Of a stretch of DNA of 34,356 nucleotides, positions 5,054 to 34,356 are shown in pieces; within the stretch, counting starts at the first letter, position 1, and the number at the start of each line of letters is the position of its first letter. Both the position numbers and the translations under genes were made by a program. The notes under the pieces are model-generated. The model ran no database searches. It worked only from the letters and a program-made list of their open reading frames with translations, and was not told the origin of the DNA. This DNA is from Deltaproteobacteria bacterium (GTDB lineage Bacteria; Bdellovibrionota; Bdellovibrionia; JABDDW01), in assembly GCA_013287405.1 (NCBI GenBank), contig JABDDW010000007.1:1-34356 (forward strand), read 5' to 3'.

Positions 5054-5073
5054 CTCTCACGGAAGCTTGAGAG
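5054..5073 (+). promoter_or_regulatory. GGA-loop hairpin in the leader of the small gene at 5088
   Basis: CTCTCA and TGAGAG pair around the 8-base loop CGGAAGCT. The ribosome site TTTAGGAGAG follows about seven bases later, giving a second GGA. A GGA in a hairpin loop plus one at the ribosome site is the layout of CsrA-repressed leaders, and a CsrA-like gene lies at 9023-9265. No binding is shown; this is pattern only. Confidence 0.3.
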
Positions 5074-5087
5074 CGTTTAGGAGAGAT

Positions 5088-5261
5088 ATGAGTAAAGTAA
5101 TTTTAGAAATTAAAAATATTTTTAGAAACCTCTGCGGGTCATTATCCGAAGAAGAGATTCTAAAAAATCAAAGCCTCATAAGAAATATCGAGAGAATCGA
5201 AAAATTACTCTGTTCCAATCAAGAAGGAAATGTCCAAACACAGAATTGGAGTAAAAAGTGA
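5088..5261 (+). CDS. Small protein, unknown, related to the next gene
   Basis: A 57-residue protein with ATG at 5088 and AGGAGA just upstream; an earlier in-frame ATG at 5067 lacks a site. It is helical and contains LSEEEILKNQSLIRNIERIE, which lines up with ISKEELLRNPVVRRQFQALK in the gene that follows. The two look like tandem duplicates. The TGA overlaps the GTG of the second gene. No named family is recognised. Confidence 0.55.
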   Translation: MSKVILEIKNIFRNLCGSLSEEEILKNQSLIRNIERIEKLLCSNQEGNVQTQNWSKK

Positions 5262-5434
5262 AGAGGTTAAAAATTATAGAAGAGTTTGAAAGATTTTTTA
5301 AAAACATATCAAAAGAAGAACTTTTGAGAAATCCCGTCGTCCGAAGACAGTTTCAGGCGCTTAAAACAAAGCTGCTCCTCCTGCGGCATTGCCAAGGTCT
5401 CGGTTATCTCCATCTTGTGAAAGAAGGAATTTAA
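5258..5434 (+). CDS. Small protein, unknown, tandem paralogue
   Basis: A 58-residue gene beginning with GTG inside the stop of the preceding gene (GTGA overlap), with GGAG about seven bases upstream. The protein is basic and helical and shares the S-x-E-E-x-L-x-N/R-N/Q pattern and a following amphipathic helix with its neighbour. Its last 74 bases run under the 3' end of the convergent queE gene. That overlap is unusual and either limits confidence in one of the two ends or marks a rearrangement junction. Confidence 0.5.
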   Translation: MKRLKIIEEFERFFKNISKEELLRNPVVRRQFQALKTKLLLLRHCQGLGYLHLVKEGI

Positions 5435-5843
5435 AACTATGGAACTGTCTGCACGCCACCAAGACCCACCTCTTGTCTAAAAAATCACTTAAGCCACCAA
5501 GAGGTCTTGAGCCATTTGTTTCTAAATGGGTTTCATACCCACTTGCTTTAAGACGGGACAAAAGTTCAAAATCAAGTTGAAGAGTTGGCTCGCCCCCAGT
5601 GATGACAACTCGCTTAGGGCCACCAAGAGCGTCAAGCCGCTCGACAATTTTTTCAGCAGTTAAACTTTCACCCTCTCTAAAATCAGTGTCGCAGAATTTG
5701 CAAAATGATTTTGCGCGATCTTTCTCAAGACCACTCCAACGGTTGCACCCCGCAAACCTCAAAAATAGTGTGCAAGTTCCAGAAAAACTTCCTTCGCCCT
5801 GAAGGGTAGGACCAAATATTGATTTAACTCGATAAGTTTTCAA
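5361..5843 (-). CDS. queE: 7-carboxy-7-deazaguanine synthase, short C-terminus
   Basis: Radical-SAM enzyme that converts 6-carboxytetrahydropterin to 7-carboxy-7-deazaguanine. The cluster motif is C33-x14-C48-x2-C51 with CDTDF, as in QueE proteins using the CX14CX2C spacing; GPTLQGEG at the N-terminus and TGGEPTLQ in the middle match the family. The protein is 160 residues, shorter than the usual roughly 200-230. After LETNGSRPLGG the tail (FLLSQDGDNRDLGN...) does not look like the family's V-S-P-K region. So the 3' end may be truncated or replaced, where it overlaps the small convergent gene. It overlaps queD by four bases. Activity of this copy is uncertain. Confidence 0.85.
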   Translation of the reverse strand: MKTYRVKSIFGPTLQGEGSFSGTCTLFLRFAGCNRWSGLEKDRAKSFCKFCDTDFREGESLTAEKIVERLDALGGPKRVVITGGEPTLQLDFELLSRLKASGYETHLETNGSRPLGGLSDFLDKRWVLVACRQFHSFKFLLSQDGDNRDLGNAAGGAALF

Positions 5844-6280
5844 AACGTCCCCCTGTAAATGGCACTATTTTTATCGTTCTCCTTGACTTCGACTTGAACG
5901 CAATGAGCGCGGCCTTTAGTTTCTTCTTTGAGAAACTTGTTCATTTCAGTCCACAAAAACTCAGCCGTCCCCTCCATACTGACATTAGGAAGTACGGTAA
6001 GTTTGCAGGCCCCTTTTTCTTCAAGGGCCATGAAGTCGTTAAGTAATGGGTCATCGACATTGACTAAAAATGAATGGTCAAACCACATATCAAGTTTTGA
6101 CTTAAATTTTCTGAGTCCCCCGAAATCCACGACAAAGCCGCACTTATCTAAGGTCTCGGCCTCAAATAAAAAATGAAAACTGCGGGAGTAACCATGAATG
6201 AGAGAGCACGGGCCATGGTGTCGCCATTGACGGTGAGAGCAAGGGTAATTCCAAAAAGATTTAGTGGATTGGATTTTCAT
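5840..6280 (-). CDS. queD: 6-carboxy-5,6,7,8-tetrahydropterin synthase
   Basis: A 146-residue QueD/PTPS family protein, converting dihydroneopterin triphosphate to 6-carboxytetrahydropterin. The zinc and catalytic region reads PCSHRQWRHHGPCSLIHGYS: the His residues and the Cys before LIHGY match the family's C-x3-HGH block (here HGY). FDHSFLVNVDD corresponds to the D-H-x-x-L-N segment, and a Glu lies near the C-terminus (EVKEND). It overlaps queE and queC by four bases each, so the three enzymes are made together. It supplies the pterin step of preQ0 synthesis; folE is not in the window, so the host may provide it. Confidence 0.88.
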   Translation of the reverse strand: MKIQSTKSFWNYPCSHRQWRHHGPCSLIHGYSRSFHFLFEAETLDKCGFVVDFGGLRKFKSKLDMWFDHSFLVNVDDPLLNDFMALEEKGACKLTVLPNVSMEGTAEFLWTEMNKFLKEETKGRAHCVQVEVKENDKNSAIYRGTF

Positions 6281-6942
6281 GTGCCCACCTCATAAACGGT
6301 GGGATCTTTAACACCACTTTTTTGAAAGGCTTCAATACGCTCGACACAAGTCCCGCACTTCCCACAATGCTTTTTGCCACCCTTGTAGCAACTCCAGGTT
6401 AAATCAAAGGGAACACCGAGGTTATGTCCAATGCGTGCAATATCGGCCTTAGAGAGACTTACAAAGGGCGTTTGAAGCTTGATCCGCCTATAGGTGCCCA
6501 CTTCGACTGCCGCGGTCATGGGAAGGACAAATTCGGCCCGACAGTCGGGATAAATGGCATGGTCGCCCGCATGATTGCCAAGAGTTATACAATCAGCCTC
6601 TAGACTTTCAGCTAGGCCCGCAGCGATTGAAAGCATGATGCCGTTTCTAAAGGGGACCACTGTTCTTTTCATTGAAAGATCCTCATAGTGGCCGTCTGGC
6701 ACCTCGCCTCCTGATTTCAACAAATCACTTTTAAAAAGTGTGTTTATAAAACCAAGCTCAATGACGTGAAGCGGGATATTAAAATGGTCAGCCAGGGCAT
6801 GAGCTGCAACAAGCTCCATGGCATTATGTTTTGATCCATACTGAAAATGGACGCCGCCGCAAATTTCATAACCTTGAGCTATCGCATGAGCAAGTGCGGT
6901 GGCTGAGTCCATGCCACCGGATAAAACGACGAGCGCTTTCAT
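6277..6942 (-). CDS. queC: 7-cyano-7-deazaguanine (preQ0) synthase
   Basis: A 221-residue ATP-dependent enzyme that turns 7-carboxy-7-deazaguanine into preQ0. The PP-loop is clear at the N-terminus (VVLSGGMDSATAL). The zinc site near the C-terminus has four cysteines in CYKGGKKHCGKCGTC. Length and motifs are normal for QueC. No glutamine amidotransferase (Gat) domain is fused, so the amidated variant made by Gat-QueC phages is not indicated; preQ0 is the expected end product of the operon. It overlaps the transglycosylase gene by four bases. Confidence 0.93.
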   Translation of the reverse strand: MKALVVLSGGMDSATALAHAIAQGYEICGGVHFQYGSKHNAMELVAAHALADHFNIPLHVIELGFINTLFKSDLLKSGGEVPDGHYEDLSMKRTVVPFRNGIMLSIAAGLAESLEADCITLGNHAGDHAIYPDCRAEFVLPMTAAVEVGTYRRIKLQTPFVSLSKADIARIGHNLGVPFDLTWSCYKGGKKHCGKCGTCVERIEAFQKSGVKDPTVYEVGT

Positions 6943-7757
6943 GTTTGTTCCTCCAAGAGAAGTTCAGCGGCGTATTTTGTCGCCGCCGCTAAAAAAAGAT
7001 TTGTGCCAATATTTACCCCAACGTCATCACTGAGCTTTCGCATACTGCGCGCTCCAAGCCGTCGGGTGATGCTGCGGCCGCCATTCCAATTTTCTGGTTT
7101 TAAAAGATCATTGGGATTAAACCCGTAACTATGAATGGCATTAACGATTTGGGGATTTCGTAATTGTTTTGAAAGGGCATGTTTGGTTATTTGAACAATG
7201 GGCAGACCACGCCCCAGATAAAGGGAGCATGAGGCAAATCTCGCGCCCATTTCCCAGGTGCTGGAGTCAGCCATATAAGGCTTGTAAACTTTTAAGAAAG
7301 CAAGGTTAGTAAAACCAAGCCAATGAACTTTTCGACCGTTCACTTTACGCATGATTCCCTTAACAAAGCCTTTATTTTTATCAGTGCCGACAAGCCCGCC
7401 GATACCTACAACGTCGGAACTCTTATAATACTCATCCAAAAGAGAGGGATCTTCCCCTCGTGTGAATATAGGCACTGGCTTAAAACCCCGCTTGAGCATG
7501 GTCTGATAATTTTCAAGTGTTCCTTTGGGATCCCCCACGACATCAAGGGTGAAGTACCGCCAGGGTTCGATCGGGAGGTTTTCGATAAATCGACAATAAT
7601 CATCGACCTGAATTGTTTTACCGGCCTTCCATGCGGTGAAAGCCCCGGAATCAATTAAGATCCGAATCTCATCGCGCCTTTCTAAGAAAAAGCGACTGAC
7701 TTCAGGCTTCACGTAAGGAAAGGCCATTAAAAGATTAAGGGGAGGCCTTTTAGACAA
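6939..7757 (-). CDS. dpdA: DpdA-like transglycosylase, inserts 7-deazaguanine into DNA
   Basis: A 272-residue TGT-superfamily protein of the short phage DpdA kind, expected to swap guanine in DNA for preQ0. Features in order: DSGAFTAW near residue 37 (the DSGGFQ-like base-binding Asp of TGT), FTLDVVGDP, a GIGGLVG loop like the G-G-L-x-x-G of TGT, HWLGFTN, and DSSTWEMGAR, whose Asp matches the nucleophile position by family order. The CxCxxC zinc site of tRNA-modifying TGT is not seen, which argues against a tRNA enzyme. It is encoded between a ParB-like gene and queC with overlaps on both sides, so substrate supply and use are co-expressed. The family assignment is firm; the exact modified base is inferred. 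Confidence 0.82.
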   Translation of the reverse strand: MSKRPPLNLLMAFPYVKPEVSRFFLERRDEIRILIDSGAFTAWKAGKTIQVDDYCRFIENLPIEPWRYFTLDVVGDPKGTLENYQTMLKRGFKPVPIFTRGEDPSLLDEYYKSSDVVGIGGLVGTDKNKGFVKGIMRKVNGRKVHWLGFTNLAFLKVYKPYMADSSTWEMGARFASCSLYLGRGLPIVQITKHALSKQLRNPQIVNAIHSYGFNPNDLLKPENWNGGRSITRRLGARSMRKLSDDVGVNIGTNLFLAAATKYAAELLLEEQT

Positions 7758-8385
7758 TCTCCACCCCCTGAAAACTTGTTTCTAAAAGTTTTGCTTTTAT
7801 ATAAATAGAAACTTCGTCAAAAATTTCCTGGGGGCATTTTATTTTGATAACCGCCGTAATACCGTCAAGATTTTCTTCAGCCTTATCGACGGCCTCAGTA
7901 CCCGTGTCCCATCCACCAAACAGACGCTCTAATTCGTCCTCATCAAATAGCGTTAGTTCTAAATCAAAATTCTGGTGATCAAGGTCTAATATCCACTCGC
8001 TAAGTTGAGAGAAGTCCCAATCTCCAGCACCTTTATTTGCAGCAATGTTGGCAGCTTTTTCTTTTGACTCATCCCACTCAACTTCACGGTACGAAAAGCG
8101 CTCACCCGAAATTTCAATGTAGCCTTCGGCAATGGTGCCTGTCCGGGTGGGCGCTTCGTATTCTTTGAGAATTGTTATTTTTGATTCAGGTGGAATAACT
8201 TTTAATCGCTGATGCCCACCCACCAATTGCTGGCTCTTGCGGTTAAAAACGATTCCAGAAATATCTCCAAATTCGGCCAGAGTTTTTTTGAGCATTAAAA
8301 GTTTTTGATCTGTTATTCGGCGTGGATTTTTGAGGTTGGGCTTAAGATCACTAAGGGAGGAGTTTGGTTTTTTTATGTTAGCCAT
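7750..8385 (-). CDS. ParB/sulfiredoxin-fold protein
   Basis: A 211-residue protein with an N-terminal ParB-like fold: NPRRITDQKL, then VGGHQRLKV (residues about 55-65), matching the G-G-H-x-R box that binds nucleotide in ParB/Srx proteins. A helical middle part (AANIAANKGAGDW) is typical of phage ParB-like proteins found beside DNA methylases and modification genes. The C-terminal 45 residues are not assigned. It overlaps dpdA by eight bases, which suggests it works with DNA modification, for example by target selection or as a nuclease or CTPase, rather than in chromosome partition. No ParA partner is present. Confidence 0.75.
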   Translation of the reverse strand: MANIKKPNSSLSDLKPNLKNPRRITDQKLLMLKKTLAEFGDISGIVFNRKSQQLVGGHQRLKVIPPESKITILKEYEAPTRTGTIAEGYIEISGERFSYREVEWDESKEKAANIAANKGAGDWDFSQLSEWILDLDHQNFDLELTLFDEDELERLFGGWDTGTEAVDKAEENLDGITAVIKIKCPQEIFDEVSIYIKAKLLETSFQGVEIV

Positions 8386-8388
8386 GAC

Positions 8389-8628
8389 TTATCTCTCTTC
8401 GTGATCGGGTTCAGTAATCACCCCATGGCGTTTTGCTTTTGAAATAAGGGTTGTTCTATTTAACCCCAACGCGTTTGCAGCATGAGTCCGGTTTCCATTA
8501 CTTCTCTCCATCGCTTTTGTTAGAAGAGTGGTTTGAAACTGCTCAAGCACCTCTGGAAGATTCAGCGGGAACTTTACCGAAATCGTAATTTCTTCGTCAG
8601 TGTTCAAGTTTGAACTGTTATGATTCAT
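8389..8628 (-). CDS. Fis-type helix-turn-helix protein
   Basis: A 79-residue protein whose C-terminal half is a Fis-family HTH (MERSNGNRTHAANALGLN, residues about 44-61), the same module that ends NtrC-type activators, but with no AAA+ domain. It is the first gene of the queuosine-type operon and lies three bases before the ParB-like gene. It may be the operon's autoregulator; an ACGTTGA/TCAACGT inverted repeat begins three bases upstream of its start. It resembles host Fis in size but has a different N-terminus. Confidence 0.75.
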   Translation of the reverse strand: MNHNSSNLNTDEEITISVKFPLNLPEVLEQFQTTLLTKAMERSNGNRTHAANALGLNRTTLISKAKRHGVITEPDHEER

Positions 8629-9267: not shown

Positions 9268-9789
9268 CTACCCCTTTTTGCCTGCGGGAATAACGTCACT
9301 GAATTGTGAACATTTTAGAGCGCAGACAGAGGTGTCCCTGCTGGGAGTCTCAGCCTTCTGTCTAAATAAATTTTGTTTACTATTTTCTTCTGACCGGGAA
9401 GTAGGTCGAAGCGTTTCTGAAAGGGTGGGTCGCATGTAATTCCCATGCCAAATTTCAAGAGGAGCTGGGCCATAATGCGCCCAAAGTTTTTTCTTAATTT
9501 TCCAATCAGGAGTTTGAAAACCTTTAGCTTCAACAAAAAATATTTCGTTTGTTTTCAAATCCCGACACATGAAATCGGGAATATAGACAATATTAGCTTC
9601 CGTAAGTTTAACTCTGACTTGAGTTTTGAGAAGTTCAATTTCTCCGTGAAGCGCACGATTCTTTAGGTGCAAATAAACTGCTGCCTCTAGCTTTGAAGCA
9701 AACCGATGGCCGTCATAGGAGACGAATTGGTTTCTTAACTTTGATCGTGATCTACGGCAAAAAAATCGAGACGTTCGGTGACCGCTCAC
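9268..9789 (-). CDS. DUF1064-like phage nuclease-fold protein
   Basis: A 173-residue protein with YDGHRFASKLEAAVYLHLK (residues 25-43), then a Gln, YIPDFMCRD and FFVEAKG, ending WKIKKKLW. This series (E, then D in PDF, then E-x-K) is the PD-(D/E)xK-like pattern of DUF1064 proteins common in phages and prophages. It is probably a small DNA endonuclease, perhaps for recombination or packaging. GTG start with GAGGG six bases upstream. The C-terminal 60 residues are low in family signal. It is followed at once by the CsrA-like gene. Confidence 0.7.
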   Translation of the reverse strand: MSGHRTSRFFCRRSRSKLRNQFVSYDGHRFASKLEAAVYLHLKNRALHGEIELLKTQVRVKLTEANIVYIPDFMCRDLKTNEIFFVEAKGFQTPDWKIKKKLWAHYGPAPLEIWHGNYMRPTLSETLRPTSRSEENSKQNLFRQKAETPSRDTSVCALKCSQFSDVIPAGKKG

Positions 9790-13521: not shown

Positions 13522-14373
13522 TCATTGACGACGCTGCAACTCCCTAAGTCGGTCGGCCAGAACATCCCGCCGCCGATCCCTCGCTTTCAAAGTGATCGGT
13601 ACACATAAACCCAAAAGCCGGGAGGCTAACCGCTCGTGCAAAAGGGACTTCACCTCGCCCGAGGCAAGATTTGTCGTCACAAAAGTTGGTAATTCCCAAT
13701 TAAGGCGTCTGTCAATAATTTGAAAAAGCCTTTCTGTCTCCCACGGTTTTCCCTGCTGAGTACCCAGGTCATCCAAAAACAAAACATCGGCGTGAAGGGT
13801 TTCGTTGAAAGTGGGCTCTGAGCGGTCATCACGGCCAAAATCTTTTGTCATCTGGTCAAATAAAAATGGCACCGACCACCACACCATCAGAGGCACACGC
13901 TCAACAGACTCAACATAGCGGTGAACAAAGGACGCCATCAGATGACTTTTTCCAGAACCGGGAGGCCCCTGAAGCCAAAACCCATATCGGTCACTGGGCC
14001 TCCACTTTTTCACAAGCTCAATTTCTCTAGCGCAGTCGGAGTCAACTTGAAAAGAGTCAAGCCGCTTTGCCATTATATTTCCGGGGAACCCTGAGCGCTT
14101 TAGCATAAGGTTCATATCCTGACGTTTACGAATTTCGTTTGCAGCGCGCCCCCTCTCTGCAACCTTCTCCTCGCAAACGGGATGGGGCAGCGGCCGCCAT
14201 GCAATTCTGCCTAAAACGGCTGGTGGAAGTGCTGTGGAATCTTCAAAAGCAAAATCAGGATTTTTTTCGTAACTAAATACCACTCCACACTCAGGGCACC
14301 TATCACTTGGCTTTTCAAATTGTTCGCCATTTGAAATCAACACGGGCTTAAAAACCTTAGAGTGCTGCTGCAT
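13522..14373 (-). CDS. DnaC/IstB-like AAA+ helicase loader
   Basis: A 283-residue AAA+ ATPase. Walker A is FWLQGPPGSGKSHL, Walker B is DVLFLDDLGTQ, a sensor I Asn is in FVTTNLAS, and an Arg-rich sensor II or Arg-finger part follows (HERLASRLLG). The N-terminus has CPECGVVF, half of a zinc ribbon. DnaC-type loaders place the replicative helicase on DNA. It overlaps the 3' end of the initiator gene by 17 bases, matching the lambda O-then-P order. No transposase of the IS21 type is nearby, so the IstB alternative is unlikely. Confidence 0.85.
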   Translation of the reverse strand: MQQHSKVFKPVLISNGEQFEKPSDRCPECGVVFSYEKNPDFAFEDSTALPPAVLGRIAWRPLPHPVCEEKVAERGRAANEIRKRQDMNLMLKRSGFPGNIMAKRLDSFQVDSDCAREIELVKKWRPSDRYGFWLQGPPGSGKSHLMASFVHRYVESVERVPLMVWWSVPFLFDQMTKDFGRDDRSEPTFNETLHADVLFLDDLGTQQGKPWETERLFQIIDRRLNWELPTFVTTNLASGEVKSLLHERLASRLLGLCVPITLKARDRRRDVLADRLRELQRRQ

Positions 14374-15771: not shown

Positions 15772-15904
15772 CTGAGTCGAACCTCTTCACTCGGTCACTA
15801 AATGGGAACGCAGCGACGTTCCCTTTTTTACGTCTGCGTTAAAATTCAGCATATTGAGTTCAGAGAGTTGGACTGTGGGAACGCTGACTTCTACTGAGTC
15901 GAAC
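15772..15904. repeat. Imperfect direct repeat at the recombinase 3' end (candidate att)
   Basis: On the minus strand TTCGACTCAGT-x-GAA-x4-GCGT-Y-CCC is present twice, once inside the recombinase gene (near 15875-15904, coding FDSVEVSVP) and once just beyond its stop (near 15754-15783, where the same frame would read FDSVEFGVPWW). About 120 bases separate them. This looks like two junction copies at an attachment site, or a duplicated 3' end left by repeated insertion. Confidence 0.4.
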
Positions 15905-17607
15905 TTTACCAGACTATACAGATTCACTGCCCCTGATAGAGCATAATTTTTTCGCCCTTCGCAAGGCGGGTGCATTGTCACCTTGTCGGGAAATACTCTT
16001 CTCATAATTCTGTTTGCATCACTCATGTGCTTTGCCAAAATATCGTTGAGCGATTCAAGCCGACGCTTGATGACGGTCGGCGTAATATAGACCTTATCCT
16101 CAAGCTGACCTTTCAAGTAACCCTGACGGGTCTTGAGGTGACTCCGCTTTGCCTCTTCAGATTTTAGAGCGTGAGCGATGGTATCCGACAAATTGCCCTG
16201 AGCGATGAACGCCGTGAAATTCCCAATCGCTGTCTCACAGCGGCTCAACTCCTCTTCCACTAAATCCAACTCCTTTGGAACCGCCCCTTTCTTGCGACCG
16301 ACGATCTCGTTATACTTTTTGGCGATTGTCTCGTAAGTGGCGGGATCACCCAACTTCTCTTTTAAAACCCCGATCAACGTAGTCTCAACGTCCACCATCA
16401 AGACCATCGCCTTGTTCTCGCAACGGTTATGCCCTGTCTCACGTTTATTGTTGAAGCATCCCAAGTAGCCGCCATTTTTTCCCGACGCGATGAACATATT
16501 GCCATCACAGATCGCACATTTGAGAGTTCCGACAAATATGTGTGATGGAAGTCTGTTTGTCCGGCTAAAGATTTTTTGCTCAGTCGTCAGAGCCTCTTCA
16601 CGTTCTCGCCTCATTTGATCTTTTCTCGTTTTGACCTTATCTGCAATGTCAGTTGGAATTATTCGCAAGTCATCTCTCTGAAGAACGAGCCACTCTTTTT
16701 TGGGCCGAGACATTTGCTCCATGCGTTTGCCCTCTGGATTTTTCTTCACTTGGGTCTGTCGATAACTCCAATCACCAAGATATTTAGGTTGGTTCAAAAT
16801 ATTCCACACGGCTTTTTCTGACCAGCGTGTTCCGGCCCTTTTGTTTTTGCCCGGCGGCGGAACTTGATCTCCGTTGAGTCGTGTGGCAATCGCCCGACAA
16901 CCGAGGCCATCGGCAAATTCCTTCCAAATCCTAATCACGATCTGTGACTTCTCATAATCAATCTTGATTTCAAACCATGAGGGCTTCTCATGGCCTTTCA
17001 TAAACAAAGTCTTAGTCGCCACAGAATAATAACCGTAGGGGTTGTGGCCTGTCGAAAAACCTTTGAGGCAGCGCACCTCTAAGCCCCGCATCGTGTGGCG
17101 GGACGTAGCCTTGCTTTGGGCTTCATTGGCATACCCCTTAAAAATAAAGAGATCGCGGGAATTGGGGTCAAGTGTGCTTGTGTTATCAGAAACAGAGATG
17201 CCCTCAACGTCTTGAAAAACGAGAGCGTCATACAAGTCCAGTGTCTCACCGAGTTCGCGGGTCAGGCGGCTTATGTCGTCGGTCAGAAAAAGATCGAAGG
17301 CTTTACTCTTTACGCCCGAAATTCCCAACTCATAACCATCACGGCCCGTCGTGCGACCCGTCTTGGCCTCATCTTTGAGAACCCACCTGTTATCTATGGT
17401 GATCTTTGCGTTCGGGAACCGCCGCGACCGCAGTTGACCAGATTGAATCCGATATTTTATTCTCTCAATCTGTTCGTCACAACTTAGCGGGGAATTACCT
17501 TCGCATGAGTGACGGGCGTAAATACACGCACTCATCTCCATGCGAGAGAGGTGAGTATCATCGTCACTCAATTGGATTATTTTAATCTTTGGATTTTGTG
17601 ATTCCAT
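15787..17607 (-). CDS. Large serine recombinase
   Basis: A site-specific recombinase of about 606 residues from ATG 17607 (other in-frame starts: TTG 17664, ATG 17541; none has a clear ribosome site). The resolvase domain opens ACIYARHSCEGN and includes LFLTDDISRLTREL and a serine soon after the N-terminal strand (in YARHS). A recombinase domain follows (TGHNPYGYYS ... GCRAIATRLNGDQVPPPGK ... VWNILNQPKYLGDW), then a zinc beta-ribbon (CAICDGNMFIASGKNGGYLG and a later Cys pair) and a coiled coil. This is the full layout of large serine integrases that insert and excise mobile elements. The last 100 bases may have been exchanged (see direct repeat). Confidence 0.9.
   Translation of the reverse strand: MESQNPKIKIIQLSDDDTHLSRMEMSACIYARHSCEGNSPLSCDEQIERIKYRIQSGQLRSRRFPNAKITIDNRWVLKDEAKTGRTTGRDGYELGISGVKSKAFDLFLTDDISRLTRELGETLDLYDALVFQDVEGISVSDNTSTLDPNSRDLFIFKGYANEAQSKATSRHTMRGLEVRCLKGFSTGHNPYGYYSVATKTLFMKGHEKPSWFEIKIDYEKSQIVIRIWKEFADGLGCRAIATRLNGDQVPPPGKNKRAGTRWSEKAVWNILNQPKYLGDWSYRQTQVKKNPEGKRMEQMSRPKKEWLVLQRDDLRIIPTDIADKVKTRKDQMRREREEALTTEQKIFSRTNRLPSHIFVGTLKCAICDGNMFIASGKNGGYLGCFNNKRETGHNRCENKAMVLMVDVETTLIGVLKEKLGDPATYETIAKKYNEIVGRKKGAVPKELDLVEEELSRCETAIGNFTAFIAQGNLSDTIAHALKSEEAKRSHLKTRQGYLKGQLEDKVYITPTVIKRRLESLNDILAKHMSDANRIMRRVFPDKVTMHPPCEGRKNYALSGAVNLYSLVKFDSVEVSVPTVQLSELNMLNFNADVKKGTSLRSHLVTE
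15804..15829 (+). terminator. Intrinsic terminator-like hairpin in the recombinase 3' end
   Basis: GGGAACG and CGTTCCC pair (7 bases, 6-base loop) followed by TTTTTT on the plus strand. It lies within the last codons of the minus-strand recombinase. No plus-strand gene directly precedes it, so it may stop antisense or incoming transcription. Confidence 0.5.
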
Positions 17608-17764
17608 TGCCGGTGTCCACGCTTCCAATCCGCTCCATGTCCTCCTCCACCAACACTGTGGCAATCAACTCTAAGAGGTCATCCAAAACATTTTGATGCG
17701 ATGTATTTATAGGTGGGGTTGTCCACTGTAAAGGCGATTCTGCCTTGTAACCATCGTTATCCAA
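17582..17764 (-). CDS. Small protein preceding the recombinase
   Basis: A 60-residue frame starting at TTG 17764 with only a weak GATGAAG upstream. The central helix NVLDDLLELIATVLVEEDME is well formed. It overlaps the recombinase start by 26 bases and the previous small frame by 58 bases. Short helical genes of this kind often precede phage-type recombinases. It may be real but has no firm start. Confidence 0.42.
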   Translation of the reverse strand: MDNDGYKAESPLQWTTPPINTSHQNVLDDLLELIATVLVEEDMERIGSVDTGNGITKSKD

Positions 17765-22118: not shown

Positions 22119-22785
22119 ATGAGTCAAAAATTTTGGGTCATTACAAAGGATTTATTTTTGTCGTTGGAGGAAATTCGCCGCCTTTACACAGCACCGACCG
22201 ATGCAAAAGACCTCGCGCTCCAACGAAGAAAAAATGTTGTTCACATAAGAGACTATTTTATTTTGAGGACGCTACTCGAAAGTGGGTTGAGGGTGAGCGA
22301 ACTTACCGCCCTAAAGGTTGGGGATTTCCACAGCAATTCTCTAATTGTTAGACGCGGCAAAGGGGGGTAAAACCCGCAACGTGCTATTGTCAAAAGATAC
22401 TCAGAGAACGCTCAGAGATTTTGTCAAAATAAAATCGAAGATTCTCAAAGAACCCACGGACGCCGACTCATTTTTCTTTATATCTGAGAGGCGTAAGCCC
22501 TACACCACTCGCGGCGTAAGGATGCGTGTGAAATTCTGGTTTAGACAATGTGGTTTTAATTCCAAGTTATCGTGCCATTCCTGTCGTCACTCGTATGTGA
22601 GCCATCTCATTGCCGGAGGGGTTGATTTAGCCACTGTGCGCGACAACGCAGGTCACAGCAACATCGCAACAACCTCTTTGTACGCCCACGTCCTCAAAAA
22701 CGATCTAAACGACTTTACTATTTATAGTTCCGCTTCCAAGGGAACTGAGAACTATTCGGTCCACAAGAAAGAAAAAGCTCAGTGA
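22119..22785 (+). pseudogene. Tyrosine recombinase, catalytic domain, frameshifted at a G6 run
   Basis: Two frames join into one XerC/D-like catalytic domain of about 222 residues. The first (22119-22370) has the Arg of the R-H-R triad in LLESGLRVSELTAL and ends at AAA GGG GGG TAA, just where the conserved RGKGGKTR Lys loop is coded. The second resumes with GGKTRNVLLS and carries CRHSYVSHL (H-x2-R box), AGHSN and the nucleophile Tyr in TTSLYAHV. One G fewer, or a +1 ribosomal shift, would restore the protein. It lacks the usual N-terminal core-binding domain. It could be a dead gene, a programmed shift or a sequencing error in the G run. Confidence 0.82.
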
Positions 22786-22848: not shown

Positions 22849-23697
22849 ATGAAATCGTTAAAGGTCTTTTACTCCGATAAACAAAATGTCACCGACAACA
22901 TTGACTCTGGAAGCCCCAGTGCTGGCAAACCGGCGCAGGTGTTGGCGTCATGGCAAACATTAGGGATACCGCTTGATATTGAGGATCCCAAGCCCTGTAC
23001 CCGCGAACAAATGGCTTTGGCCCACTCACCCGAATACGTCAACGGCGTTCTGAACCTTAAAATCCCCAATGGCTTTGGCAATCGTCTTGAAAGTGTGGCC
23101 CGGTCTTTACCATATACGACGGGGGCTATGAAGGACGCTGCCCTATTTGCTTTTAGGACCGGCTCCCCGGCGGCAGCTTTGGTTTCCGGGTTTCACCACG
23201 CACATTATGATAGTGGCGGGGCATTTTGTACTTTCGAGGGTCTTATCATTGCGTCACAGGTCTTAAAATTAGACGGGGCCACAAGTGTTGGCATTTTGGA
23301 TTGTGACGAACACGCCGGAAACGGAACCAAGTCGATCATCGAAAGACTTTCGCTGGATTACATTTCTCATTGGAGCCTTGGTTACAGCAATGTTGATGAG
23401 AGCAACGCCGATGAATGGCTCAAAAATCTTCCACACCTTTTACAGTCAGAATTTCCGACCATTAAAGTTTTGCTATATCAAGCCGGAGCCGATTGTCATA
23501 TTGACGACCCATTGGGCGGTCGCTTCACCAATGACCAGATGAGATTAAGAGATCGAATAGTTTTCGAGTACTGCAAAGAAAAAGGTATCGGTTGTGCTTT
23601 TGACCTAGCAGGTGGATACCAAGAACCACTGCGAAAGGTTTTGGATATTCACGACGGAACTCTCCGAGAGTGCCATCGAGTGTTTGGGCGTGAGTAA
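22849..23697 (+). CDS. Histone deacetylase superfamily (class II-like) metalloenzyme
   Basis: A 282-residue protein with the full HDAC/acetylpolyamine amidohydrolase active site: His-His dyad at 116-117 (GFHHAHYDSGGAFC), zinc ligands in ILDCDEHAGNGT (Asp153, His155), a third ligand in GADCHIDDPLGG (Asp220) and GGYQEP with the Tyr257 of GGY. Bacterial members hydrolyse acetylated polyamines, lysine or other amides. The gene is in the accessory island, starts behind GGGG and overlaps a TPR gene by eight bases. Its natural substrate is not visible; an acetyl-removal partner for the GNAT toxin is a speculative idea. Confidence 0.85.
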   Translation: MKSLKVFYSDKQNVTDNIDSGSPSAGKPAQVLASWQTLGIPLDIEDPKPCTREQMALAHSPEYVNGVLNLKIPNGFGNRLESVARSLPYTTGAMKDAALFAFRTGSPAAALVSGFHHAHYDSGGAFCTFEGLIIASQVLKLDGATSVGILDCDEHAGNGTKSIIERLSLDYISHWSLGYSNVDESNADEWLKNLPHLLQSEFPTIKVLLYQAGADCHIDDPLGGRFTNDQMRLRDRIVFEYCKEKGIGCAFDLAGGYQEPLRKVLDIHDGTLRECHRVFGRE

Positions 23698-24958: not shown

Positions 24959-24982
24959 GTGAACAGAAAGTGGAGTTGGAAC

Positions 24983-25387
24983 ATGACTAAAGTGATTGCG
25001 GTTTTTGTATTATCTACTGCTATATTCCTAGCTGCTTGCGGTGGTGGTGGTGGTGGAGGTAACAGTGCGCCCGCTCCGGCAGCCCAAGCAACGGTCGATC
25101 CTGACACAGTTGCCGCTTCGCTTCCGACTTGCGATCAAGCAACCGCCTCAGATCAGTCAAGAAAAGATGCAACTGCTCTTTTACAAAAAGAGACAGAGCG
25201 CCTACAACGACAAACCGATAAGCTGCAAGCAGAAACAGATCAGGTGGTTTCAGATTACCAAGCGGGGCGTATCTCACAGGCAGATGCACAAGCCAAAGCA
25301 GAACCTCTCAAGGCAAGAGCCTATGCTCTAAAAGATCAAACTGCGACGGCTAATGCACTTACCCAATGCCTCAAAGGTAATCAATAA
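24983..25387 (+). CDS. Lipoprotein with Gly-rich linker and coiled coil
   Basis: ATG 24983 gives a signal peptide whose lipobox is LAAC (AIFLAACGGG) at about residue 20, followed by a run of seven glycines. A GTG at 24959 sits right after the terminator T run and is not favoured. The mature part holds a Gln/Lys/Asp-rich coiled coil (QKETERLQRQTDKLQAETDQ) and two Cys residues (TCDQ and QCLK) that could form a disulphide. It is probably anchored in the outer membrane facing the periplasm. No enzyme motif. It is followed by another lipoprotein gene. Confidence 0.7.
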   Translation: MTKVIAVFVLSTAIFLAACGGGGGGGNSAPAPAAQATVDPDTVAASLPTCDQATASDQSRKDATALLQKETERLQRQTDKLQAETDQVVSDYQAGRISQADAQAKAEPLKARAYALKDQTATANALTQCLKGNQ

Positions 25388-31014: not shown

Positions 31015-34000
31015 CGAGGCTCTCGGCTTTAGAGTTTTCCGTTTTTTTCATCCACATGTACATAATCGCAAGTAAGTTTTGAGTATCTACTGGTTTTGTA
31101 ATGTAATCAGATGCACCAGCTTCAATGGCTTTTTCTCGATCACCTTTCATGGCCTTTGCGGTAAGAGAAATAATCGGAAGTGATTTGAATTCAGGAATAC
31201 TACGGATATTTCGGGTTGCATCAAGCCCATCCATGTCAGGCATCATCGTGTCCATTAAGATCATATCAACGTCTGGATTTTCATTTAGAAGTGTAATCGC
31301 AACTTTTCCAGTTTCCGCGGAGATCACGGTCATGTTACGCGACTCAAGAATACTACTAATGGCAAATATGTTTCGCGCGTCGTCGTCAACTATCAGAATC
31401 TTCTTTCCTGTAAAGTCGGCATTTTTTGGCAAAGGCAGTACCTTCACTACATTTTCAGGGGTTACTCTTCTACCGGTGTCGGCACCAGTGTAATTTTGGG
31501 GTAAATAAAGAGTAAACGTACTACCATCTCCCTTGGCACTTTTGACCTCAATGAACCCACCAAGCAAACGGGCAATTTCTCGGCTAATCGTTAGTCCCAG
31601 TCCTGTTCCTCCGTACTTCCTACTTGTACCACCATCGGCTTGTTGGAAAGCCTCGAAAATGAGCTGTTGCTTATCAATCGGGATACCGATCCCAGTATCT
31701 TGGACTGAAAACGCTATTACTTTTTCCCGATGATTTAAATTTTCTTTTAGAAATGAGTTATTCTGGTCTGGGACAAATATTTTAAGACTCACTTTTCCAT
31801 GCTCAGTAAACTTAAATGCATTTGACAATAAATTTTTTAGGATCTGTTGCAAACGATAATTGTCGGTAAAAATTTCTTTTGGCACTTTAGGATCTAACTC
31901 CACCATAAAGTCTAATGCCTTGTGATCGGCAATGGGCTTGAAGGTCTGTTTCGTATATTCCTGAACTTCTGAGAGTTTAACCTCTTTTGGTTCAATTGGC
32001 ATTTTGCCTGCTTCCACCTTCGAGAGGTCAAGTATTTCATTAATAAGGGCCAATAAATCGCACCCAGCCGAGTGGACGGTCGCGGCATATTCGACTTCTT
32101 TTGGTTTAAGATTCTGGTCCTTATTTTCTGACAGCATTTTAGAGAGAATCAAAAGGCTGTTTAAAGGTGTGCGGAGTTCATGAGACATATTAGCTAAAAA
32201 CTCTGACTTATACTTGGATATAAGTGAAAGTTGCTCCGCCTTTTCTTCGAGAGATCGGCTGGCCTGTTCTACCTCTTGATTTTTAACTTCCAGTAATTTT
32301 GCCTTGTCTTCAAGTTCCTTGGCTTGAGATTCGAGACCTTTATTGGAACGCTGTAGTTCCTTAAGCAATTCTTCAGTTCTCATACTAGAGGAGATCACGT
32401 TCAAAGTGATCCCAATACTATCCATAAGCTGATCAAGAAAGTTTAAATAGTTCATGCTAAATGGTCGAAGTGAAGCTAACTCAATAACGGCTTTGAGTTG
32501 ACCTTCAAATAAGACGGGTAGAACAACAATGTTGAGTGGTTTTACTTCGCCCAGGCCTGAATCAATTGGGGCGTAATCTTCATTTGACGAGGTGATGAGG
32601 ATTCTCTTTTTTTCAAAAGCGCATTGCCCAACAAGGCCTTCCTTTAGACGGTATTTTGTTGTTTCTCCTCGCTCCTTACTGAGAGCGTAAGAAGCAACAA
32701 GTTTCAAAGTCGAATCTTGAGATACCTCATCGGCCATAAAAAATGCGCCGACTTGCGCATCTACAAGGGGTGTGAGATCCGACATAATAAGCTGGGCAAC
32801 GGCTTCAATGCTTCTTTGACCTTGCATCATTCCAGAAAATTTTGCGAGGTTCGTTTTGAGCCAGTCTTGGGCCGTATTCTTATGTGTTGTATCTTTAAGA
32901 TTACCGATCATCTGGTTAATATTATCTTTAAGTGCGGCAACTTCTCCTTGAGCCTTAACTGTAATGGATCGTGTTAAATCTCCTTTAGTAACAGCAGTCG
33001 AAACTTCGGCAATGGCTCGCACTTGGGACGTGAGGTTTCCTGCAAGCTGGTTAACGTTGTCAGTCAAGTCCTTCCACGTGCCCGACGCACCTGGAACTTT
33101 GGCTTGGCCCCCAAGTTTTCCTTCAATACCAACTTCTCTTGCCACAGATGTAACTTGTTCGCCGAATGTTCGAAGTGTGTCAGTCATACTGTTAATTGTT
33201 TCAGCAAGGGCCGCAACTTCCCCTTTTGCTTCAAGAACGAATTTCTGATTGAGGTCGCCCTTAGCAACGGCGGTAACGACCTTAACGATACCTCGCACTT
33301 GATTAGTTAAGTTGCTTGCCATCACGTTAACATTGTCGGTCAGATCTTTCCAAGTGCCGGCAACGCCAGGAACTCTTGCCTGGGCGCCAAGTTTTCCTTC
33401 GATACCAACCTCTCTCGCCACTGTCGTAACTTGATCAGCAAATGTTCTGAGTGTATCGGTCATGCTGTTGATTGTTTCAGCAAGGGCCGCAACTTCGCCC
33501 TTAGCTTCAAGAACGAATTTCTGATTGAGGTCGCCGTTTGCTACGGCGGTAACGACCTTTACAATACCACGAACTTGTTTCGTGAGGTTACCCGCCATAA
33601 AATTAACGTTATCTGTTAAATCTTTCCAGATTCCCGAAACACCTTTAACGTCAGCTTGTCCGCCAAGTTTTCCTTCTGTACCAACCTCTTTTGCAACACG
33701 CGTAACCTCGGCTGCGAAGGAGTTCAATTGATCCACCATGATGTTGATTGTATTTTTAAGTTCAAAGATTTCACCCTTGGCATCGACTGTGATTTTTTGA
33801 GAGAGGTCGCCCTTAGCAACAGCTGTTGTGACCTTAGCGATATTACGAACTTGAGAGGTCAAGTTTCCTGCGAGTTGGTTAACGTTGTCAGTGAGATCCT
33901 TCCAAGTTCCCGAAATACCTTTAACCTGCGCTTGACCGCCAAGTTTTCCTTCTGTACCAACCTCTTTTGCAACACGCGTAACCTCGGCAGCGAAGCTATT

Positions 34001-34356
34001 GAGCTGGTCCACCAGATTGTTAATTGTGTTTTTAAGTTCTAAAATCTCACCTTTAACGTCAACTGTAATTTTCTGAGACAGGTCACCTTTAGCAACGGCT
34101 GTAGTAACTTTTGCAATGTTACGAACTTGAGAGGTCAAGTTTCCTGCGAGCTGGTTAACGTTGTCGGTAAGATCTTTCCATGTACCTGACACACCTTTAA
34201 CTTGAGCTTGACCGCCAAGTTTTCCTTCCGTACCAACCTCTTTTGCAACACGCGTAACCTCTGATGCGAAGGAGTTCAATTGATCCACCATGATGTTGAT
34301 TGTGTTTTTAAGTTCAAAGATTTCACCTTTGGCATCGACTGTGATTTTTTGAGAAA
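30998..34356 (-). CDS. Poly-HAMP hybrid histidine kinase (5' end outside the window)
   Basis: The frame is open to the window edge, so at least 1118 residues are seen. It starts with five complete and one partial 92-residue HAMP repeats (each with VDQLNSFA- or [12 protein letters not shown] helices and a [11 protein letters not shown] block), then a GAF-like domain ([18 protein letters not shown]), a coiled coil, HisKA with [14 protein letters not shown], HATPase ([14 protein letters not shown] N box, [15 protein letters not shown]), and a C-terminal REC with [13 protein letters not shown] and ITKPVD. The poly-HAMP style is that of group III (Nik1-like) kinases and some bacterial ones, linked to osmotic or redox sensing in those. 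The N-terminal part is unknown. Confidence 0.9.
32911..34356 (-). repeat. 276-base tandem repeats encoding the HAMP units
   Basis: The same block (CGCCAAGTTTTCCTTC...) recurs at 33661, 33937 and 34213, exactly 276 bases apart, and more diverged copies at about 33112 and 33388. Copies near the right edge are the most alike at DNA level, so repeat number may change by recombination. Confidence 0.85.

Follow-up and report, generated by a model that had tools for sequence, protein, structure and literature searches.

A truncated phage-type preQ0 DNA-modification cassette, probably the front part of one carried by a decayed prophage

Several phages carry the 7-deazaguanine base preQ0 in their DNA. 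As reported in PMC6884629, its deoxynucleoside (dPreQ0) accounts for about 28% of G in phage Rosebush and about 32% in CAjan, none was detected in CAjan without dpdA, and dpdA of phage 9g alone in E. coli led to dPreQ0 at 0.3% of plasmid guanines, drawn from host-made preQ0; the same source describes the long QueC of 9g as Gat-QueC. In mycobacteriophage CRB2, open reading frames (ORFs) ORF1 to ORF5 encode a ParB-superfamily protein, a DpdA-like protein, QueC, QueD and QueE, and its authors suggested that the ParB beside DpdA could be a homolog of DpdB (PMC6392294), which is described elsewhere as a ParB-like ATPase (PMC12839542). Here we compare these systems with a cassette on contig JABDDW010000007.1 (assembly GCA_013287405.1), of which the whole analysed stretch, positions 1 to 34,356, is called the window. 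The system itself is of a known kind, phage-type preQ0 DNA modification, and this copy of it is damaged; most likely it is what survives of the front end of a phage cassette whose prophage has decayed.

The cassette comprises six minus-strand frames (Table 1), of which the Fis-like and ParB-like frames are separated by 3 nucleotides (nt) and the rest overlap by 8, 4, 4 and 4 nt. An earlier note on this DNA had called these frames a six-gene operon for preQ0-type DNA modification. The gene calls are good and the phage-type character is borne out by the phage-family matches of DpdA, the ParB-like protein and QueE (Table 1) and by alignment to 9g DpdA (below), but the operon is incomplete, with queE ending at residue 123 and folE not found. 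Nor does the Fis-like gene, listed by the earlier note as a member, seem to belong to the conserved module. It is adjacent and has a helix-turn-helix domain, but in BLASTP (E 1e-3) no ORF of the 91 related loci had it as best match, many of these loci having short upstream DNA; it may possibly be a local regulator.

The break lies within queE. Its QueE-like part covers residues 1–123 (5475–5843) and contains the CX14CX2C motif; the remainder of the frame is not QueE-like. The frame matched TIGR04508 (queE_Cx14CxxC) over profile positions 1–122 of 208 (116 bits; cut-off 240), and the phrog_2076 match spanned residues 2–115 only. Among the 120 relatives listed of 905, the window frame has 160 amino acids (aa) and the other 119 have 184–224. 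In tblastn, homology to four close relatives (68–80% identical) stopped at position 5475, residue 123, and the gapped alignment of a fifth, remoter relative (59%) reached 5430. The C-terminal half of QueE, with its SPK, DLK and LSLQTHK stretches conserved in relatives, is absent from every downstream frame in the window, and tblastn of this half across the window gave nothing convincing (best E value 0.024, elsewhere in the window). With about 85 of 208 residues lost, the truncated enzyme is very probably inactive. FolE was not found in the window either (best tblastn E value 0.27), so that, measured against a complete cassette, QueC and QueD look intact and an intact QueE and FolE are missing. 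Two small tandem plus-strand frames (5067–5261 and about 5261–5434) look alike on visual inspection; PHROGs gave no match for the first, and the second overlaps the 3′ end of the broken queE.

Relatives place the late genes just beyond this point. We collected loci related to the window DpdA by scanning IMG/VR, where 315 were confirmed and the best 80 viral loci were used, and genomes, which gave 11, for a total of 91. The exact order ParB-DpdA-QueC-QueD-QueE-FolE occurred in 16 loci and ParB-DpdA-QueC-FolE-QueD-QueE in 23, and FolE was present in 75 of the 80 viral and 10 of the 11 genome loci. A queE scan confirmed 11 viral loci with QueE 36–68% identical to P0128, the nearest intact QueE; four of them (L186, L187, L189 and L190) come from the same contigs as L006, L008, L079 and L051, so that seven are new. 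In all 11, folE directly followed queE, within about 200 nt, and a terminase followed folE in all five contigs examined: TerS, TerL, portal and head genes in L008, TerS in L082, and TerL with a portal in L184, L185 and L188 (portals of L185 and L188 weak). FolE is likewise ahead of the terminase in mycobacteriophages StAugustine and Typha, with one gene between in Typha. The FolE, TerS, TerL, portal and head proteins of L008 and the TerS of L082 all lacked a tblastn match in the window (E 0.01), and a PHROGs scan of 29 different window proteins gave no structural label except a weak ‘pilot protein for DNA ejection’ (24959–25387, E 4.6e-4). For the proteins scanned, the lack of phage structural genes stated in the earlier note is thus supported. 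Since FolE and terminase come next after queE in close relatives and none was found here, the late region would be expected to start near the point at which the window breaks off.

The transglycosylase is of a phage type. Alignment of the window DpdA with phage 9g DpdA using hhalign gave a probability of 99.5 and an E value of 3.7e-23, and the protein has the TGT-superfamily fold shared by DpdA and tRNA-guanine transglycosylases (TGTs). The VHGFG motif of 9g (His196 by count) aligns with VHWLG in the window (His145), and this histidine is invariant in 34 relatives. PMC6884629 reports a histidine at position 196, a number that we take to refer to 9g DpdA, as conserved in DpdA1 and absent from DpdA2. 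On this sequence evidence, the window DpdA is of the phage 9g type (DpdA1), with a predicted role in inserting a 7-deazaguanine into DNA. A tRNA-guanine transglycosylase was considered and rejected: against tRNA TGT models there was no Pfam match and no NCBIfam match listed up to E 10 (E. coli Tgt scored 637 bits), and hhalign against E. coli Tgt aligned just 15 columns (E 0.068). A grouping with tRNA TGT enzymes, the outcome that the earlier note had named as telling against its claim, is thus not what the sequence indicates. Neither DpdA nor the ParB-like protein had a match listed up to E 10 to the bacterial models NF041059 (DpdA) and NF041060 (DpdB); positive controls from plasmid L175 scored 563 and 456 bits, and 9g DpdA itself reached just E 0.018.

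QueC exceeds the curated cut-off of TIGR00364 (150.3 bits). QueD is under that of TIGR03367 (38 versus 89 bits), yet is full length against phage QueDs. In the alignment, a phage QueD subgroup including the window protein, L006, L028, L005 and others has C-x3-HGY instead of the usual HGH, the tyrosine taking the place of what we presume to be one zinc ligand.

The coupling of a ParB-like protein to the transglycosylase, which the earlier note had singled out, is the usual viral order and is known in mycobacteriophages. Across the 80 viral loci (82 DpdA ORFs), ParB ended at most 300 nt upstream of DpdA in 74 of the 77 eligible cases, meaning those with more than 500 nt upstream. A ParB profile matched in 79 of the 80 viral and 6 of the 11 genome loci, and BLAST placed ParB near DpdA in 58 of 72 loci. 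Relatives at 70–78% of the window ParB-like protein are 208–212 aa long. Among isolates, Nicole72 has ParB directly before its DpdA match. In L033 (6845–8230), a ParB domain and then DpdA occupy a single uninterrupted frame, which may reflect either a genuine fusion or a frameshift where the two genes normally overlap. In the queuoviruses 9g, EC151 and 83AMN, no ParB is annotated in the 8–10 kilobases (kb) examined, so ParB is not universally needed. The best 80 viral relatives of the window ParB-like protein had no DpdA in the flanks examined. Among these relatives, 27 of 82 ParB ORFs exceed 420 aa, and an N6_N4 DNA methyltransferase domain follows the ParB domain in all eight of the 27 that were tested (L095, L096, L106, L117, L121, L126, L132 and L153).

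It is conceivable, if rather doubtful, that DpdA of this phage clade has in the ParB-like protein a dedicated, nucleotide-dependent partner that would load the transglycosylase on DNA or move it along, a counterpart of DpdB missed by the DpdB model. This idea fits the linkage in 74 of 77 cases, the single frame of L033 and the position of ParB ahead of a methyltransferase in eight of eight ORFs. Alignment of the ParB profile with DpdB by hhalign was weak (probability 3%, E 0.015), the method being equally weak on StAugustine ParB (2.7%, E 0.017). Phage ParB-methyltransferase fusions have already been described, and some ParB-fold proteins bind CTP, ATP or GTP (PMC12704722). ParB goes unmentioned in the accessible text of PMC6884629, and a literature search for phage ParB together with queC, queD and queE found only PMC6392294; most subscription journals lay outside its coverage, and we make no claim that the linkage is new to the literature. 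In the loci examined, a ParB-like gene nearly always precedes dpdA throughout a large phage DpdA clade, and assisting enzymes that modify DNA bases may be a general role of ParB-like proteins.

Table 1 Features of the cassette and its surroundings in the window.
Feature	Position	Strand	Evidence or remark
Fis-like helix-turn-helix protein, 79 aa	8389–8628	minus	HTH_8 PF02954 2.5e-11
ParB-like protein P0005, 211 aa, apparently intact	7750–8385	minus	phrog_620 3.7e-26, phrog_498 3.9e-28
DpdA P0004, phage 9g-type DNA-guanine transglycosylase, 272 aa, apparently intact	6939–7757	minus	phrog_887 2.8e-31
QueC, preQ0 synthase, 221 aa, apparently intact	6277–6942	minus	PF06508 9.7e-63; TIGR00364 190.7 bits
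QueD, 146 aa, apparently intact	5840–6280	minus	PF01242 2.5e-24, phrog_2389 9.6e-38
queE, truncated frame, 160 aa	5361–5843	minus	radical SAM 4e-11, phrog_2076 7.2e-23
Apparent deletion/rearrangement junction within queE	5470–5480	none	queE homology ends; folE and late genes not found past junction
Phage-type Holliday junction resolvase (DUF1064), just upstream of cassette	9268–9789	minus	phrog_190 1.2e-23, PF06356 9.4e-9
DnaC-like loader	13522–14373		
Large serine recombinase, mid-region, not at an end	15787–17664		phrog_95 integrase; similar to XisF
Primase-helicase	18379–20580		

Genes near the cassette include some of early type, namely the resolvase, DnaC-like loader, serine recombinase and primase-helicase (Table 1). 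Elsewhere, a tyrosine integrase match over the C-terminal part only (22345–22785) and a histone-deacetylase-like ORF matching part of its domain (22849–23697) are perhaps a second decayed element, and five direct repeats (276-nt period, 66–75% alike, 32909–34312) lie within the gene of a sensor kinase rich in HAMP domains. One QueE relative (68%) is named Bdellovibrio sp. HAGR004. Among phage matches to the ParB-like protein, Bdellovibrio phage phi1422 ranks first (52% over 114 residues); in that phage the ParB-like gene adjoins terminase genes, and no DpdA is annotated in the 12 kb examined. Judging from these matches, the host is probably Bdellovibrio-like, and the cassette points to preQ0-type phages of such hosts.

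We infer that the carrier was a temperate phage infecting a Bdellovibrio-like host and that one deletion event struck its cassette. In relatives with an intact cassette, preQ0 would be made from GTP by FolE, QueD, QueE and QueC, DpdA would exchange guanines of phage DNA for it, and the ParB-like protein encoded just before DpdA would assist in some way, with the outcome, published for other phages and presumed here, that phage DNA resists restriction. Deletion or rearrangement would then have cut queE after residue 123 and removed its end, folE and the terminase-portal-head genes. The remnant could modify DNA only with FolE and QueE from the host, or with preQ0 that the host imports, and would otherwise be inert; a host with its own queuosine pathway could possibly feed it, given that 9g dpdA alone works on E. 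coli preQ0. Several observations weigh against a decayed prophage. Five of the six genes are apparently intact, so either decay set in recently or selection still acts on some of the genes. The loss of folE and late genes is read from the loci nearest by queE, and in the wider set only 26 of the 72 eligible loci have FolE starting no more than 400 nt behind QueE. Three genes of the 13.5–20.6 kb replication region had no useful relatives in viral contigs, which leaves their membership in the same prophage unproven. No integration borders, tRNA or convincing attachment-site (att) repeat were found, and the host assignment depends on a single named QueE relative plus a single ParB match in a phage.

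Three other explanations were considered. The earlier note took the missing capsid genes as the mark of a distinct element, which would be a living phage satellite or island that protects its own DNA from restriction by preQ0 modification, draws FolE and QueE from the host and uses the capsid of a helper phage. The replication and recombination genes nearby, the five apparently intact cassette genes and the near absence of structural matches among the proteins scanned would suit such an element, but queE is cut mid-gene exactly where folE and late genes start in relatives, the recombinase is mid-element with no tRNA or convincing att repeat found, and no repeat of the layout was noticed in the 91 loci used (80 viral, 11 genome). 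We regard it as quite improbable; that claim gives way to the simpler one of a damaged phage cassette, as in related phage contigs folE, terminase and portal come directly after queE, where the window breaks. The intact genes, together with the ability of 9g DpdA to use host preQ0 (PMC6884629), would also suit domestication, in which the host keeps ParB, DpdA, QueC and QueD, adds its own FolE and QueE and carries preQ0 in its chromosome; no restriction partner was recognised among 10 proteins compared with PADLOC, where matches were generic, and domestication appears unlikely. Misassembly at 5475 is possible, and the break inside a gene whose other half was not found in the contig is what a join of phage contig and chromosome would leave, the real prophage being complete. 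However, on the right-hand side of the cassette, too, the sequence up to the chromosomal-looking sensor kinases gave no recognisable late genes, and the truncated QueE (P0127) is recorded on two contigs, although possibly from the same data. We regard a chimera as very improbable. The decayed prophage is the reading we prefer.

The bacterial Dpd islands, which pair DpdA with the DGQHR protein DpdB and may or may not carry restriction genes, resemble the window in having a TGT-fold transglycosylase beside a protein named as ParB-like, with preQ0 genes near, but their two models do not recognise the window proteins. In two alphaproteobacterial plasmids (L175, 5477–9001; L177, 5277–8928) the order is dpdB-dpdA-dpdB-queE-queD-queC-VUT; the single DpdA is flanked by two distinct DpdB proteins, which in L175 share about 30% identity.

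Phage 9g (Queuovirinae) shares a homologous DpdA with the conserved histidine and differs in its long QueC, its FolE, the lack of an annotated ParB beside DpdA and a polymerase clamp gene after DpdA. Mycobacteriophages of the CRB2/Rosebush group have a ParB-DpdA-preQ0 module as in the window. In StAugustine and Typha, too, ParB precedes DpdA, after which come QueD, QueE, FolE and then terminase; unlike the window, they have an extra gene between ParB and DpdA and encode FolE and virion genes, and Typha has no QueC annotated. Mycobacteriophage DpdA is about 28–30% identical to that of the window. The IMG/VR contigs L006/L008 and L184 differ from the window in their full-length QueE and in the FolE and terminase/portal genes after it. 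L006/L008 share its order ParB-DpdA-QueC-QueD-QueE, in theirs then FolE, and across L006/L008 and L184 QueC is 62–73% and QueE 59–71% identical to the window proteins.

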